In this document: positions 48,240 to 53,840 of the stretch, one piece after another
How positions within the stretch are numbered: the first letter of the stretch is position 1
Layout of the letters: every line of letters begins with the position of its first letter
NCBI GenBank assembly: GCA_947177165.1
Contig: CAMWTP010000028.1
Coordinates: forward strand, 1-64,000
Length of the DNA stretch: 64,000 nt
Reading direction: 5' to 3'
DNA from: an uncultured Lachnospiraceae bacterium
Lineage (GTDB): Bacteria > Bacillota > Clostridia > Lachnospirales > Lachnospiraceae
Position numbers and translations under genes: made by a program
Notes under the pieces: generated by a model
Told to the model about the DNA's origin: nothing
Databases searched by the model: none
The model's input: the letters and a program-made list of their open reading frames with translations, nothing else

Positions 48240-50018
48240 ATGGGACAAAACGGGAAAGACGGGTATAAGGAGTATTCGACGGATGTCTTGATCAGGCGGT
48301 TTCTTCCATATTTTAAGCCATACCGGAGAACATTGTGCGCAGATTTGTTCTGTGCGGCGCTGACCACAGTGTGCGAGATTGTGCTTCCGCTGATTATCCG
48401 GAAGATTACGAACACTGCGCTCGAGGACGTGGCGCTGCTGACAGTGCGCATGGTGATTGGGCTGGCGCTGGTGTATTTTGTGCTGCGGATTATCGATGCG
48501 CTGGCCAATTACTATATGGCGGATACGGGGCATGTGATGGGCGCGAAGATTGAGACGGATATGCGACGTGATGCCTATGCGCATCTGCAGCTGCTGTCCA
48601 ACACGTATTTTAACAATACGAAGGTCGGTCAGATTATGGGACGAATCACGAACGACTTGTTCGAAGTGACGGAGTTTGCGCATCACTGCCCGGAGGAATT
48701 TTTTATTGCGGCGATTAAGATTGTGATATCGTTTATCATATTGGCGCAGGTCAATCTGCCGCTGACGCTGATGATCTTTGTGTTTGTGCCTGTTATGACG
48801 ATTGTGTGCCGCATCATCAACAAGAAAATGCGCAGGACATTTAGTGAGCAGCGGCATCAGATTGGCGAGCTGAATGCGAAGATAGAGGATAGTTTATTAG
48901 GACAAAAGGTTGTGAAAGCATTTACAAATGAGGCGCTCGAATCAGAGAAATTCGAGGAGGGCAATCAGGAATTTTTGCGGGTAAAGACACATGCGTATAT
49001 GTTGATGGGATTGTTCAGCACTTCCACGAGAGTGTTTGACGGACTGATGTATCTCACCATCATTATCGGCGGCGGCTTTTTCCTGATGGATGGAAGGATT
49101 CTGCCTGGTGACATGGTTGCGTATGTCATGTACGTGTCCACATTGATCGCGACAATCCGCAGGATTATAGAGTTTGCGGAGCAGTTCCAGCGCGGTATCA
49201 CAGGCATCGAGCGTTTCCTGCAGATTATGGACGCAGATATAGAGATTTTTGATGAGGAGGACGCGGTGGTTATCGTCAATCCAAAGGGTGAGATTGCGTT
49301 CCACAATGTCAGCTTTGAGTATCCGGATGACCACAACAAAGTGTTTGCAAACCTCAACCTCGAGATTCACGCTGGCGAGAAGCTTGCCATTGTGGGACCT
49401 TCCGGCGGCGGAAAGACGACGCTGTGCAATCTGATACCGCGTTTTTATGATGTGTCCTGCGGGGAGATTACACTGGACGGTAAAAATATCAGGAAGCTGA
49501 CTTTGAAGAGTCTGCGCCAGAGTATCGGAGTAGTCCAGCAGGAGGTTTATCTTTTTTCGGGAACGGTGTATGACAATATCGCATACGGAAAGCCGGGTGC
49601 GGCCTATGAGGAGGTCATGGAAGCTGCAAAGCGCGCCGGTGCGGACGAGTTTATCCAGAACTTGAAGGACAAATATGACACGTATGTCGGTGAGCGCGGT
49701 GTGAAGCTTTCCGGCGGACAGAAGCAGCGCATCAGCATTGCAAGAGTATTTTTGAAGAATCCGCCGATACTGATTCTTGATGAGGCGACCTCTGCATTGG
49801 ATAATGAGAGTGAATACGCAGTTGCAAAGTCTTTGAATGAGCTGGCGAAGGGGCGCACGACGCTCACGATCGCCCACAGGCTTTCCAGTATCAGAAATTC
49901 GGACAGAATCCTGGTGCTGACAGATGAGGGAATCGTGGAAGAGGGAAATCATGAAGAACTGATGGAGCTTGGCGGGATTTATCATCATTTTTATGTGATG
50001 GCGAATGAGATTAAATAG
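48240..50018 (+). CDS. ABC exporter, fused permease and ATPase
   Basis: A 592-residue half-transporter of the MsbA/LmrA type that works as a dimer. Six membrane helices occupy about 35-315; the ATPase has GPSGGGKTT (Walker A), the ABC signature KLSGGQKQR, Walker B ILILDEATSAL and the H-loop TIAHRL. Such exporters move lipids, drugs or peptides; there is no peptidase domain and no adjacent precursor gene. AGGGAG precedes the ATG. Confidence 0.93.
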   Translation: MGQNGKDGYKEYSTDVLIRRFLPYFKPYRRTLCADLFCAALTTVCEIVLPLIIRKITNTALEDVALLTVRMVIGLALVYFVLRIIDALANYYMADTGHVMGAKIETDMRRDAYAHLQLLSNTYFNNTKVGQIMGRITNDLFEVTEFAHHCPEEFFIAAIKIVISFIILAQVNLPLTLMIFVFVPVMTIVCRIINKKMRRTFSEQRHQIGELNAKIEDSLLGQKVVKAFTNEALESEKFEEGNQEFLRVKTHAYMLMGLFSTSTRVFDGLMYLTIIIGGGFFLMDGRILPGDMVAYVMYVSTLIATIRRIIEFAEQFQRGITGIERFLQIMDADIEIFDEEDAVVIVNPKGEIAFHNVSFEYPDDHNKVFANLNLEIHAGEKLAIVGPSGGGKTTLCNLIPRFYDVSCGEITLDGKNIRKLTLKSLRQSIGVVQQEVYLFSGTVYDNIAYGKPGAAYEEVMEAAKRAGADEFIQNLKDKYDTYVGERGVKLSGGQKQRISIARVFLKNPPILILDEATSALDNESEYAVAKSLNELAKGRTTLTIAHRLSSIRNSDRILVLTDEGIVEEGNHEELMELGGIYHHFYVMANEIK

Positions 50019-50115
50019 ACATTAGATTATATAACTTGAATCCGCGTGTAGAAAATGATACGATGAAATTATATCACTTGGACATAGTTGTTTTAGAAAA
50101 AGGAGATCATACACA

Positions 50116-51117
50116 ATGCAGCAGAAAGACACGCAGGAGAAGGCGCAGGAAACGATGCCCGTGAACAGAAAGGCGAAGGATACCTTTTTCAAGACGGTGT
50201 ACGCATCGGAGGAGCGCCGGAGAAAACTGGCTTCCTTTTTGTTGGGAATAGAGGGAAAGCAGATCACCACAGCCAATGTGCGCCCGGTGCTGTTTGGAAA
50301 TAAAGAAAATGATTTAGCATTTGTCTGCGATGCGATTTTTTATGTGATGACGGAGAGCCAGGCGACGATATGTCCCAACATTTCATATCGTTTGTTGGAG
50401 TACATCACCGCGGGTCTGCGCTCAACGGTGGACAGTGAGCAGTTGCTGTACAGCAGAAAGCGTGTGTATTTTCCGATACCCAAGCTGTATTTGCTGCAGA
50501 CAGGACTGGAAATGAAAGCGGAAAATTTACCAGAGAGGGTGCAGTATGATGTTCGCCTGAGTGATTCCTATGTAGCAGTGGATGAGAAATACAGAGAGGA
50601 AGCGGCGGAACCGGACTTGGAGGTTGTCGTACATGTGTATGATTTCCGGATGACGCTGGATGAAATGTTTGATTATATTGAGCAGAATATCATTCCAGCG
50701 CGCTTCGAAGTCTATGCCGGGGACATGAGAGATTATGCATTGACTGCAAACGGCATTACTTATATGCAGCGTGCGGTGAAGGATGAAAAGCAGGAAAAAT
50801 ATCTGATGCCAAAGAATGTATCAACAGTGGCAGAGTATCTGGAACTGCTGATAAACAGGGATATTTTTGTGGATTTGTTGAATGATAAGGAGGTATGTGA
50901 TATGACAATGGCACAGTTTTCAAGAGATGATATACTGATCTATCAGGGTCGAGAAGAAGGTCGAGAGGAAGGGATGGAAGAGGGAGAAATAAAGGGAGTG
51001 ATACAAACTTATAAAAACCTGGGAGTAAGCATGGAAGATGCGAAACGTTATATCATGGATAAATTATATAAGAGTGAGGAAGAGACAGACGGATATATGA
51101 ATAAGTACTGGAAATGA
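50116..51117 (+). CDS. Rpn-family PD-(D/E)XK nuclease with intragenic start
   Basis: A 333-residue member of the Rpn/PDDEXK transposase-like family. The core NDLAFVCDAIFYVMTESQAT followed by NISYRLLEYI has D72, E80 and Q82, matching the family's ExQ-S/A pattern. The C-terminal part is the usual YQGREEGREEGMEEGE charged linker plus a helical end (KNLGVSMEDAKRYIMDKLYK). Inside the gene AAGGAGG (50887-50893) lies 8 nt before in-frame ATG 50902. The nucleotides 50899-51121 are duplicated at 52427-52637. AAAAGGAG precedes the main ATG. Confidence 0.82.
   Translation: MQQKDTQEKAQETMPVNRKAKDTFFKTVYASEERRRKLASFLLGIEGKQITTANVRPVLFGNKENDLAFVCDAIFYVMTESQATICPNISYRLLEYITAGLRSTVDSEQLLYSRKRVYFPIPKLYLLQTGLEMKAENLPERVQYDVRLSDSYVAVDEKYREEAAEPDLEVVVHVYDFRMTLDEMFDYIEQNIIPARFEVYAGDMRDYALTANGITYMQRAVKDEKQEKYLMPKNVSTVAEYLELLINRDIFVDLLNDKEVCDMTMAQFSRDDILIYQGREEGREEGMEEGEIKGVIQTYKNLGVSMEDAKRYIMDKLYKSEEETDGYMNKYWK
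50902..51117 (+). CDS. Candidate intragenic C-terminal protein (RpnS-like)
   Basis: Met263 of the Rpn protein has a perfect AAGGAGG 8 nt upstream, unusual inside a coding region. It would give a 71-residue protein starting MTMAQFSRDDILIYQG. A second ATG (50908) is in frame. The stand-alone paralogue at 52430 starts at exactly this residue, which argues that the short product is a real functional unit. In E. coli Rpn loci such a product neutralises the nuclease. Confidence 0.6.
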   Translation: MTMAQFSRDDILIYQGREEGREEGMEEGEIKGVIQTYKNLGVSMEDAKRYIMDKLYKSEEETDGYMNKYWK

Positions 51118-51166
51118 TATTTACATTCTGCATCGTATCATAATTGAAAAGGGAGAAAGAAAATTA

Positions 51167-52417
51167 ATGGCACAATTACAAAAGCAGTCAGAGACAGAAA
51201 CAGTATCGCAAATGAAAACGGAAAATGATGTGGTATCACAAATGAAAACAGATAATGAAGCGACAGTGGAATCAGAGATGGAAACGTCAGCGGAAGACGT
51301 GGTTGAGCAGCAGTCTGACGACTTGCAGGAGGACAATTCATCTGAGGAGTCTGTGACAGAGCCTGATGCATTTGATATTACCAGGAAATTTAAGCACAGT
51401 CAAAACCAGATATCCAGCCAGAGACAAACGGCAGAGAAAGAACCGCAGCAGGGGCGCGAAATCCCGAAAAAGCGAAAGTTAGTAGGTGTGACAGACAAAA
51501 AAGTTGAGACGAAACGAATCCTGTACTTTTTGGCGTTATGTTTCGGTGTCGCATGGGTTTCGGAGATTTTTGCCATCGTTCCAATGTATCAAAGTGGGAA
51601 TGTCGATGTGGTGAAGGAAGCAGTGGATATGATCTCACAGCTGATGCTCACACCGGCGCTGGCGGCGCTTGTGGTGCGGATCGGGACGAAGGAAGGACTT
51701 GTAAAGTCCGGATTTCAGTTTAATTTTTTTGAGTACAAAGGTTTATTTCTGCTCGGCTGGTTTGGGACGACAGTTCTTACATTCCTGGGCGCAGCGATCT
51801 ATTTCCTGGTTTTCAGAAACAATTTCGATCCGAATATGACAAACTTTGTCGCTTCGTACAGTGAGAGTGCGGCAAACGCGGGTGCACAGATCGATGCGGT
51901 GAATATTGTGGCTGCTTACAAGACGGACTTGCTTATCAAAGTATTTACGGCAGCAGTGCTTGATCTGATCAACAGTTTTGGAGAGGAATGGGGGTTCCGT
52001 GCATATCTGCTTCCAAAGCTTTACCGAAAGTTTGGTGCGGTACCGGCGATGCTGTTAAGCGGTTTTGCTTCTGGTTTGTGGTATGCGCCGCTTGTTGCAG
52101 TCGGATATTACTATGGAAATGGCAATGCGGGATTTCCAGTGGTGAATATCATTGCAATGTGCATTTTTAGCACAGTGACAGGTGTCATATATTCTTATCT
52201 GTGCCTGCGCACGGGGAGTATTTTCCCAGCAGTGTTTGCGCACAGCGCAGTCAATGTATTGATGTCACAGGCGGCATTATTTACCTTTGACGGCGGCAAT
52301 TTCTTTGTGGGACCGTCTCCCACCGGAATCTTGTCAGGTCTGCCGTTTATCGCGGCAGCAGTGGTTTGTCTGGTTCTTATGCACAGGAATCCGGTCAAGG
52401 CGAGTGGTGAACAGTAG
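51167..52417 (+). CDS. CPBP-family intramembrane metalloprotease
   Basis: A 416-residue protein. About 110 polar, acidic residues precede the first membrane helix (ILYFLALCFGVAWVSEIFAI). The CPBP motifs follow: EEWGFRAYLLPKL (EExxxR), FASGLWYAPLVAVGYY and VFAHSAVNVLMSQ (H..N). Motif 2 reads WYAP where many members have FxxxH, so one metal ligand may be missing. Family members process peptides or give self-immunity. It lies between the two copies of the Rpn C-terminal segment. GGGAG precedes the ATG. Confidence 0.82.
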   Translation: MAQLQKQSETETVSQMKTENDVVSQMKTDNEATVESEMETSAEDVVEQQSDDLQEDNSSEESVTEPDAFDITRKFKHSQNQISSQRQTAEKEPQQGREIPKKRKLVGVTDKKVETKRILYFLALCFGVAWVSEIFAIVPMYQSGNVDVVKEAVDMISQLMLTPALAALVVRIGTKEGLVKSGFQFNFFEYKGLFLLGWFGTTVLTFLGAAIYFLVFRNNFDPNMTNFVASYSESAANAGAQIDAVNIVAAYKTDLLIKVFTAAVLDLINSFGEEWGFRAYLLPKLYRKFGAVPAMLLSGFASGLWYAPLVAVGYYYGNGNAGFPVVNIIAMCIFSTVTGVIYSYLCLRTGSIFPAVFAHSAVNVLMSQAALFTFDGGNFFVGPSPTGILSGLPFIAAAVVCLVLMHRNPVKASGEQ

Positions 52418-52426
52418 GGAGTATTT

Positions 52427-52637
52427 GATATGACGATGGCACAGTTTTCAAGAGATGATATACTGATCTATCAGGGTCGTGAGGAAGGAATGGAAGAGGG
52501 AGAAATAAAGGGAGCAATACGAACCTATAAAAAGCTGGGAGTAACCATGGAAGACGCGAAACGCTATCTTATGGATGAATTTTATAAGAGTGAGGAAGAT
52601 GCAGACGGATTTATGAATAAGTATTGGGAATGATATT
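52427..52637 (+). repeat. Direct duplicate of the 3' end of the Rpn gene
   Basis: This segment matches 50899-51121 almost throughout, apart from scattered substitutions and a 12-nt difference (one GREE unit). The two copies bracket the CPBP gene. The homology starts a few bases before the internal ATG and ends just after the stop codon. Confidence 0.88.
52430..52633 (+). CDS. Stand-alone RpnS-like C-terminal protein
   Basis: A 67-residue protein starting MTMAQFSRDDILIYQGREEG and ending GFMNKYWE. It matches residues 263-333 of the Rpn protein at 56 of 67 positions after one 4-residue gap, with its own AGGGAG 8 nt before the ATG. Many of the changes are conservative, and the frame is intact, so it appears to be kept by selection rather than a decaying fragment. 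It could be a dedicated antitoxin or a decoy antitoxin; this is inference. Confidence 0.6.
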   Translation: MTMAQFSRDDILIYQGREEGMEEGEIKGAIRTYKKLGVTMEDAKRYLMDEFYKSEEDADGFMNKYWE

Positions 52638-52697: not shown

Positions 52698-53525
52698 TCA
52701 TGCCATGCAGGGTATCTTTTTGTCTGTATACAGGATATGGTTGATCAGCCAGCCAAGCAGAAATTCCAATAATTCCTGCAGGTATTCCTGGGGGTTTTCG
52801 TCGATCTGGCCGAGATTAATGTTTTCGAGCTTGTCGACAAACGCCTCATGTGCGCGTTTCTGTGCACTCAGACCTTCATAGTGAATCCCTTCCATATACT
52901 CCTCTTCATCTGCGAAATGTTCTTTTGTATATTCCTTCAGTTCATTTAAAATCTGGATAATGCTGTCGTAACCGGAAAGACTGTCAAAGTTCTTGACCAG
53001 CTGGTTTGCCTTGTCGACAATGCGGAAAAGTTCCTTGTGCTCGGCGTCGACAAGCTCAATGCCGGTCAGATATTCGTCGGTGAACTCGCAGGGATTTTCG
53101 CGCACCATCCACTCCTCAAGCGGGGGAAGCTTGCCGATCAGAATATCGCTGCTCAAAATATGACGGTACAGCCACTTTGCCAGGAATTTCACCAGCTCGG
53201 TGAGCAGGCGCTGCTGTTCCTCCTCATTATCGATGTTGACAAATTCATACTCCCGTATCTTGTCGCGGAAAAATGCATGCTGCGTGCGCTGGCGGATCAG
53301 CTCTGGATCACGGATTTGCATCATATATTCTTCCTCGTGGGAAAAATGGGTTTCCGCATATTCATCAAGCTCTGCGAGGATATTTTTCAGATCCTGATAA
53401 TAGTCGCTGTGATATTCCGTGCAGGCCAGAGTATAGGCCTTTGAGAGCAGCGCAAACAGATTTCGGTGCTCATCATCTATCGTTTCGATGCCGGTTATGC
53501 AGTCCTGTGTGAATTCAAATATCAT
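52698..53525 (-). CDS. Tandem bacteriohemerythrin
   Basis: A 275-residue protein made of two hemerythrin domains. Each has the diiron ligand pattern: domain 1 IDDEHRNLF, THFSHEEEYM, H-AFF and RHILSSD; domain 2 VDAEHKELF, EHFADEEEYM, HEAF and NHILYTD. Such proteins bind O2 and are thought to buffer or sense oxygen in anaerobes. I start at the second ATG (53525) because AAAGG lies 9 nt upstream; the first ATG overlaps that site. Confidence 0.92.
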   Translation of the reverse strand: MIFEFTQDCITGIETIDDEHRNLFALLSKAYTLACTEYHSDYYQDLKNILAELDEYAETHFSHEEEYMMQIRDPELIRQRTQHAFFRDKIREYEFVNIDNEEEQQRLLTELVKFLAKWLYRHILSSDILIGKLPPLEEWMVRENPCEFTDEYLTGIELVDAEHKELFRIVDKANQLVKNFDSLSGYDSIIQILNELKEYTKEHFADEEEYMEGIHYEGLSAQKRAHEAFVDKLENINLGQIDENPQEYLQELLEFLLGWLINHILYTDKKIPCMA

Positions 53526-53630
53526 TTTTATCATCCTTTCTTTATTGTTTTCTGTGTTTTATGTACAGTGTATATCGTCATTTGCCGGAGATGTAGGTAT
53601 TCTCCTGGCACTAACGCTCGTTATATTATA

Positions 53631-53840
53631 AGTCTGCGTGATACAATAATTTGTATCATAAGCCTATGGGATAAAAATTATTATATCATAAGCCTGCGTA
53701 ATACAATAATTTGTATCATAAGCTCACGTGATACAATTTATTGTATCATAAGCTTGCGTGATACAATTTATTGTATCATAAGCCTGCGTGATACAATTTA
53801 TTGTATCATAAGCCTGCGTGATACAATTTATTGTATCATA
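53631..53840. repeat. Seven tandem copies of a 30-bp palindromic repeat
   Basis: Units start at 53631, 53661, 53691, 53721, 53751, 53781 and 53811, each exactly 30 bp; the last two are identical. Each holds the palindrome TGATACAAT-TT-ATTGTATCA or a variant. Copies become more degenerate to the left. No unique spacers exist, so this is not CRISPR. It occupies the gap between the hemerythrin gene and the LytTR regulator. The rest of 53526-54065 has no gene; TTGACT at 53983-53988 may be a -35. Confidence 0.95.

Follow-up and report, generated by a model that had tools for sequence, protein, structure and literature searches.

Zhong et al. 2023 reported gene-within-gene toxin-antitoxin loci, formed by RpnL and RpnS, from both E. 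coli and C. difficile (PMC10327210). The E. coli nuclease is blocked by RpnS, which pairs with the RpnL tail; for RpnC, the addition of one repeat to either partner abolished neutralization, which was restored when the repeat was added to both (PMC10327210). A stand-alone rpnS beside a full rpn gene has already been published for E. coli as well, namely ypaA beside rpnE, while the origin of such stand-alone genes is left open in the parts of that paper drawn upon here (PMC10327210).

The locus considered here lies in the window, that is, the whole stretch of 64,000 nucleotides under analysis from an uncultured Lachnospiraceae bacterium (contig CAMWTP010000028.1), and its features are collected in Table 1. 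It is likely a toxin-antitoxin locus of the published RpnL/RpnS type (copy 1), accompanied by the orphan remnant of a second rpn copy that has been lost (copy 2), with the CPBP protease gene uninvolved.

Table 1. Features of the locus, with positions counted from the first nucleotide of the window.
Feature	Position	Strand	Basis or remark
ABC transporter gene, left flank of conserved synteny block	48240..50018	+	Named from translation alone
Rpn-like gene, copy 1, RpnL, 333 aa; N-terminal nuclease-type domain, residues 1-262; C-terminal tail, residues 263-333	50116..51117	+	ORF; relatives match PF04754; hhalign with E. coli Rpn
Internal Shine-Dalgarno AAGGAGG	50887..50893	+	8 nt before in-frame ATG 50902
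Internal ORF, RpnS-1, 71 aa, from codon 263 of 333	50902..51117	+	In-frame ATG, Shine-Dalgarno, codon constraint
Four-residue repeats GREE GREE GMEE in tail	50947..50982	+	One fewer in stand-alone copy
CPBP (PF02517) protease gene, conserved in genus, bystander	51167..52417	+	Pfam match
Putative deletion junction	52415..52429	+	Compared with L041 6391-6450 and L044 1-270
Stand-alone RpnS-2, 67 aa, probable remnant of second rpn gene	52430..52633	+	100% aa identity to sibling tail, L044 267-467
Hemerythrin-domain gene, right flank of conserved synteny block	52698..53534	-	Family search, synteny

The family assignment of copy 1 proceeds through its relatives. Searches with the window protein returned no match in Pfam or PADLOC at E ≤ 1, a best NCBIfam match of only E = 0.025, and no match at E ≤ 1 when the PDB sequences were searched with a profile. 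PF04754 is matched by 6 of the 14 aligned relatives (E ≤ 1; best 9.5e-5), the window protein not being among them; the N-domain of the relative L018 lies above the cut-off of this model (23.0 bits vs 21), four other N-domains of the subfamily match below it, and that of L016 gives no match. Profile comparison with E. coli RpnA, RpnB, RpnC, and RpnE by hhalign yielded E = 1e-4 with a probability of 58% over 244 columns, and in that alignment D22, D66, E80, Q82, and R92 of the window protein stand opposite D11, D63, E82, Q84, and R94 of RpnA, the predicted active-site residues that were mutated by Kingston et al. 2017 (PMC5350276); the D66 position is occupied by Glu in 1 of the 14 relatives. 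The window protein is taken here as a distant Rpn nuclease whose family membership runs through its relatives only, and by that route (L018 and hhalign) the Rpn label given in the first-pass annotation is upheld; the full-length product would be a DNA nuclease of the PD-(D/E)XK type. An AlphaFold model built from three sequences is of low quality (mean pLDDT 41), blocks above 70 being confined to the end of the tail (about residues 291–333), which is helical.

Several further observations were made on copy 1 and its relatives. The sequence ATGATACGATG at 50055–50065 and its reverse complement at 51131–51141 flank the rpn gene and occur once each in the window; this inverted 11-bp repeat was not seen in the 54 nt preceding copy 2 of the sibling genome G028. 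A promoter scan gave 8 sites against 5.1 expected, and relatives were encoded by none of 51 candidate stretches in viral contigs. A search of 299 genomes of the family with the 40-residue junction block gave matches in 2, the genome itself and one other at 54%. Residues 280–333 of the window tail (50953–51117) are 52% and 48% identical to the Rpn tails in L024 and L066, and blastp gave no significant match between the window N-domain and the N-domains of these two proteins; nuclease families may have swapped tails, with the repeat region as the point of exchange. In addition, an rpn array of about 10 kb in L046 (G001:C12:781800-791821) holds two full and several broken copies, one rpn piece being fused into an open frame of 720 residues.

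The internal Shine-Dalgarno sequence and its 71-aa product are located where the first-pass annotation had placed them, and the GREE-type repeats that follow the internal methionine differ in number among relatives. In a codon alignment of 24 genus relatives, some of them partial and some with a damaged N-domain, 19 columns carry Lys or Glu in at least 80% of the rows; both codons are present in 17 of these columns, and the only two invariant ones are the Shine-Dalgarno codons, Lys258 and Glu259. Lys258 is AAG in 23 of the 23 rows with Lys (the 24th row reads Gln) and Glu259 is GAG in 24 of 24, compared with 236 AAG in 430 and 325 GAG in 681 codons for the family as a whole; the simple probabilities of such invariance, 1e-6 and 2e-8, are overstated because the rows are related. 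Dropped before this count were the fragments L005, L056, L074, and L080, the G006 remnant (L100), the orphan of G029, which has a stop at the Lys position and keeps its Shine-Dalgarno, and the orphan of the window; L005, L056, L080, and L100 read AAG GAG as well, and L074 is without the Shine-Dalgarno. Synonymous sites are generally conserved across codons 249–272 (excess 0.46–0.57), and gene conversion, as opposed to the start site, could account for part of this conservation.

Similarly, an in-frame Shine-Dalgarno and start that would give a tail of 40–105 aa is present in all 26 of the more distant Rpn ORFs of the genus when at least 5 Shine-Dalgarno bases are required, where 200 synonymous shuffles averaged 12.7 such ORFs and never exceeded 19; with at least 7 bases required, it is present in 9 of the 26 (shuffle mean 1.6, maximum 4). 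These 26 are the distinct long frames outside the subfamily in the fetched genus loci, less the contig-edge copy L059 and the fused frame of L046. Applied to the rpn genes of E. coli, the same procedure recovered a start in all four, with a mean of 1.5 and a maximum of 4 in shuffles (a set so small that shuffles can reach the full count), including codon 244 of RpnA, a start confirmed by mutation (Zhong et al. 2023, PMC10327210). Codon shuffles within single genes, carried out without regard to position, were mostly not significant individually. Because the Shine-Dalgarno codons never vary and every one of the 26 distant ORFs carries an in-frame start, the start at 50902 is probably used, and the antitoxin-type start first proposed from the letters alone is borne out at the level of sequence, both by synonymous-site constraint and by the distant ORFs. 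Ribosomes would then also initiate at codon 263 and release the 71-residue tail as RpnS-1, which, if the mechanism known from E. coli applies, would pair with the corresponding tail of the full-length protein, keeping the latter inactive.

The gene between the two rpn units reaches 56.2 bits against PF02517 (cut-off 22.4) and had been put forward in the first-pass annotation as a candidate third component. Of 38 genomes of the genus, 29 gave a CPBP match at E ≤ 1e-10, and in 28 of these the identity was at least 53%. Among the best 20 of 33 matches, rpn material occurs at 6 loci and is lacking at 14, where the ABC gene adjoins CPBP, and no co-occurrence of CPBP with rpn beyond the shared position was found in these 20. 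The rpn material between ABC and CPBP belongs to the window, G028, G029, G004, and G017, with a decayed piece in G006, and the flanks in the window are similar to the site in G025 and G020, where rpn is absent. That Rpn, the CPBP protease, and the short copy form a three-part system acting together is exceedingly improbable, and CPBP as a third component was rejected: Rpn does adjoin CPBP in the window, G004, G017, G028, and G029, but the 14 rpn-free loci and the wide distribution of CPBP already largely refute such a system, and G001 has a tandem rpn array with no CPBP match at E ≤ 1e-10. Judged from gene order, CPBP is a bystander to rpn because of those 14 loci, and it would have no part in the mechanism. 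As separate observations, a 30-nt unit is repeated in tandem downstream of the start of the hemerythrin gene (window 53624–53840; 7.2 copies, 83% matches), and in G015 (L099 2668–3112) about 446 nt without rpn separate ABC from CPBP, a longer interval than at the other rpn-free loci compared; G015 may carry some other insertion at this position.

Behind CPBP, the 67-residue ORF repeats the C-terminal unit at the coordinates first reported, and it is intact. Its identity to RpnS-1 is 84% over 67 codons, the changes being synonymous in 10 cases and nonsynonymous in 11; it also lacks one four-residue repeat present in RpnS-1. A search of its own genome with the 71-aa unit retrieved the copy at 52430 at E = 1.1e-32, a repeat far beyond chance; of the 10 matches, the other 8 either were partial or did not exceed 49% identity across the tail, and no other likely partner of RpnS-2 was seen among them.

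The first-pass annotation regarded this ORF as an antitoxin copied out into a separate gene. The sibling genome G028 (CAMWXA01 assembly; contigs CAMWXA010000052 and 289, here L041 and L044) speaks against this. In L041, a second rpn gene starts 54 nt past the CPBP stop and runs through codons 1–39 to the contig end, with 98 of 105 aligned nucleotides equal to window copy 1 and 15 gap positions; L044 opens at codon 175, equals window copy 1 at 256 of 264 nucleotides over codons 175–262, and continues into an rpn tail with an internal Shine-Dalgarno; this tail encodes the same protein as the 67-aa ORF, and the hemerythrin gene comes next, as in the window. Codons 40–174 are absent from the sibling assembly, so that the full second gene is a reconstruction. 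RpnS-2 differs from the sibling tail by three synonymous and no nonsynonymous changes. Because both ends of a second rpn gene stand at the same place in the sibling, the copied-out origin was rejected, and RpnS-2 is probably the tail of a second rpn gene left after an N-terminal deletion. A second rpn gene would formerly have stood between CPBP and the hemerythrin gene, and about 0.8 kb, comprising the leader and nuclease domain of copy 2, would have been lost in the window lineage in one or two deletions.

The junction itself reads TAGGGAG, followed by a stretch that resembles the sequence just before the internal start of sibling copy 2, and it fits either one deletion with a base change or two deletions (GTATTTG recurs further upstream in copy 2). 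The AGGGAG at 52416–52421 lies 8 nt before ATG 52430 and overlaps the CPBP stop TAG (52415–52417); to judge from this spacing, it serves as a new putative Shine-Dalgarno for RpnS-2, and the remaining intact 67 codons would now be translated behind CPBP. An assembly artefact at 52415–52430 is very improbable: copy 1 and sibling copy 2 are 97% identical over codons 175–262, the sibling contigs break at the repeat, and the window genome consists of 247 contigs with 7% estimated contamination, but the junction is no plain read-out of either parent, since it requires either one base that differs from the sibling pre-start sequence or a second small deletion, and the two flanks lie in conserved order inside a 67-kb contig.

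Other genomes of the genus carry further states of the locus. G004 and G017 have one rpn before CPBP and none behind, and the front copy of G029 has independently lost codons 1 to about 235, leaving an orphan in which the Lys codon of the Shine-Dalgarno is now TAG, yet the Shine-Dalgarno, ATG, and frame are kept. The front copy of G028 carries a 120-nt insertion at codon 221 (L041 4664–4783) that interrupts the N-domain and leaves the tail intact; it contains two pairs of 9-nt inverted repeats and may be a small palindromic element.

As to the status of the orphan, a recent neutral pseudogene remnant that is still undecayed has close to an even chance of being the right description of the 67-codon ORF. 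The genus has many broken remnants (G006, G025:C157, and G027:C145 among them), and only 3 nt separate the ORF from the sibling tail; however, all three differences are synonymous, the junction keeps a Shine-Dalgarno at the right distance, and G029 provides a parallel case. A rather less likely alternative is that RpnS-2 is a selected immunity or decoy gene, retained because it neutralizes the neighbor or else incoming rpn alleles that share its specificity. The intact frame, the usable Shine-Dalgarno, and the purely synonymous divergence from the sibling tail are in keeping with selection, as is the survival of the Shine-Dalgarno, ATG, and frame in the independently N-deleted copy of G029, which differs from window copy 1 by 5 synonymous and no nonsynonymous changes and from the front copy of G028 by 5 synonymous and 1 nonsynonymous; moreover, RpnES is made from ypaA in E. 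coli (PMC10327210). When polarized by eye against other tails, the two orphan branches carry 3–5 synonymous and no nonsynonymous changes, a pattern that suggests purifying selection on the orphans, although the substitutions are few and part of them may predate the deletions.

The repeat numbers bear on what such a gene could act upon. Since RpnS-2 has one repeat fewer than RpnS-1, its cognate toxin would most likely be the lost copy 2 and not copy 1; by analogy with RpnC of E. coli (PMC10327210), this mismatch predicts that the orphan most likely does not neutralize the neighboring copy 1, which weakens the first-pass suggestion of an immunity unit for that neighbor. Nor does the distribution of lesions favor the selected gene: single lesions fall in the N-terminal and not the C-terminal part in 8 of 8 subfamily copies, as fits the share of length alone (P = 0.15; 0.056 for 12 of 12 with four copies from other Rpn families included), and an N-over-C excess was rejected as proof of tail retention because length alone explains it. 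Lesions were classed by eye among copies away from contig edges and with at most one part damaged or missing, leaving out L005, L022, L046 at 5053, L055, L060 at 4735, L074, and L080. A broader proposal, in which nuclease-domain loss from duplicated rpn genes would be a recurrent, selected route to stand-alone RpnS, and orphans with out-of-date repeats would act as a memory that protects against re-entry of rpn alleles of that specificity, is unlikely.

Compared with the described systems, the preferred reading, a published type of locus with an orphan remnant, has a counterpart in rpnE and ypaA (rpnES) of E. coli, which likewise combine a full-length rpn with an internal Shine-Dalgarno and start (PMC10327210) and a distinct gene downstream that matches the tail and starts from the same Shine-Dalgarno and ATG. 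The tail and the stand-alone copy differ by one four-residue repeat in both cases; ypaA and the rpnE tail of E. coli K-12 share 84% DNA identity from the Shine-Dalgarno onward, ypaA having an extra 12-nt repeat. The small gene of K-12 follows 12 nt after rpnE, whereas in the window the CPBP gene stands in between. Among 5426 E. coli genomes, a query with the rpnE N-domain hit 5372 places in 5371 genomes and a query with the ypaA region hit 8143 places, likewise in 5371 genomes; at most one of the E. coli genomes thus shows a second rpnE N-domain, in contrast to the present locus, where the sibling shows both ends of the second gene. The rpn locus of C. difficile is also Clostridial and makes RpnS from an internal start, and it differs in that a stand-alone copy goes unmentioned in the parts of that paper used here (PMC10327210). 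With the YhgA-like Transposase_31 nucleases (PF04754; Kingston et al. 2017, PMC5350276), the likeness lies in the aligned active-site residues and the difference in the distant sequence, the window protein falling below detection by the Pfam model. In the open-licence PMC literature, no paper was found that joins recombination-promoting nuclease with Lachnospiraceae. The kind of system is already known; what is added is a visible intermediate together with comparative evidence for the internal start. Within one genus, the site occurs without rpn, with a single rpn, and with rpn flanking CPBP on either side, and two separate N-terminal deletions have each left a readable tail; the constraint at the level of codons extends the comparative evidence for the internal start beyond the species reported as tested by Zhong et al.
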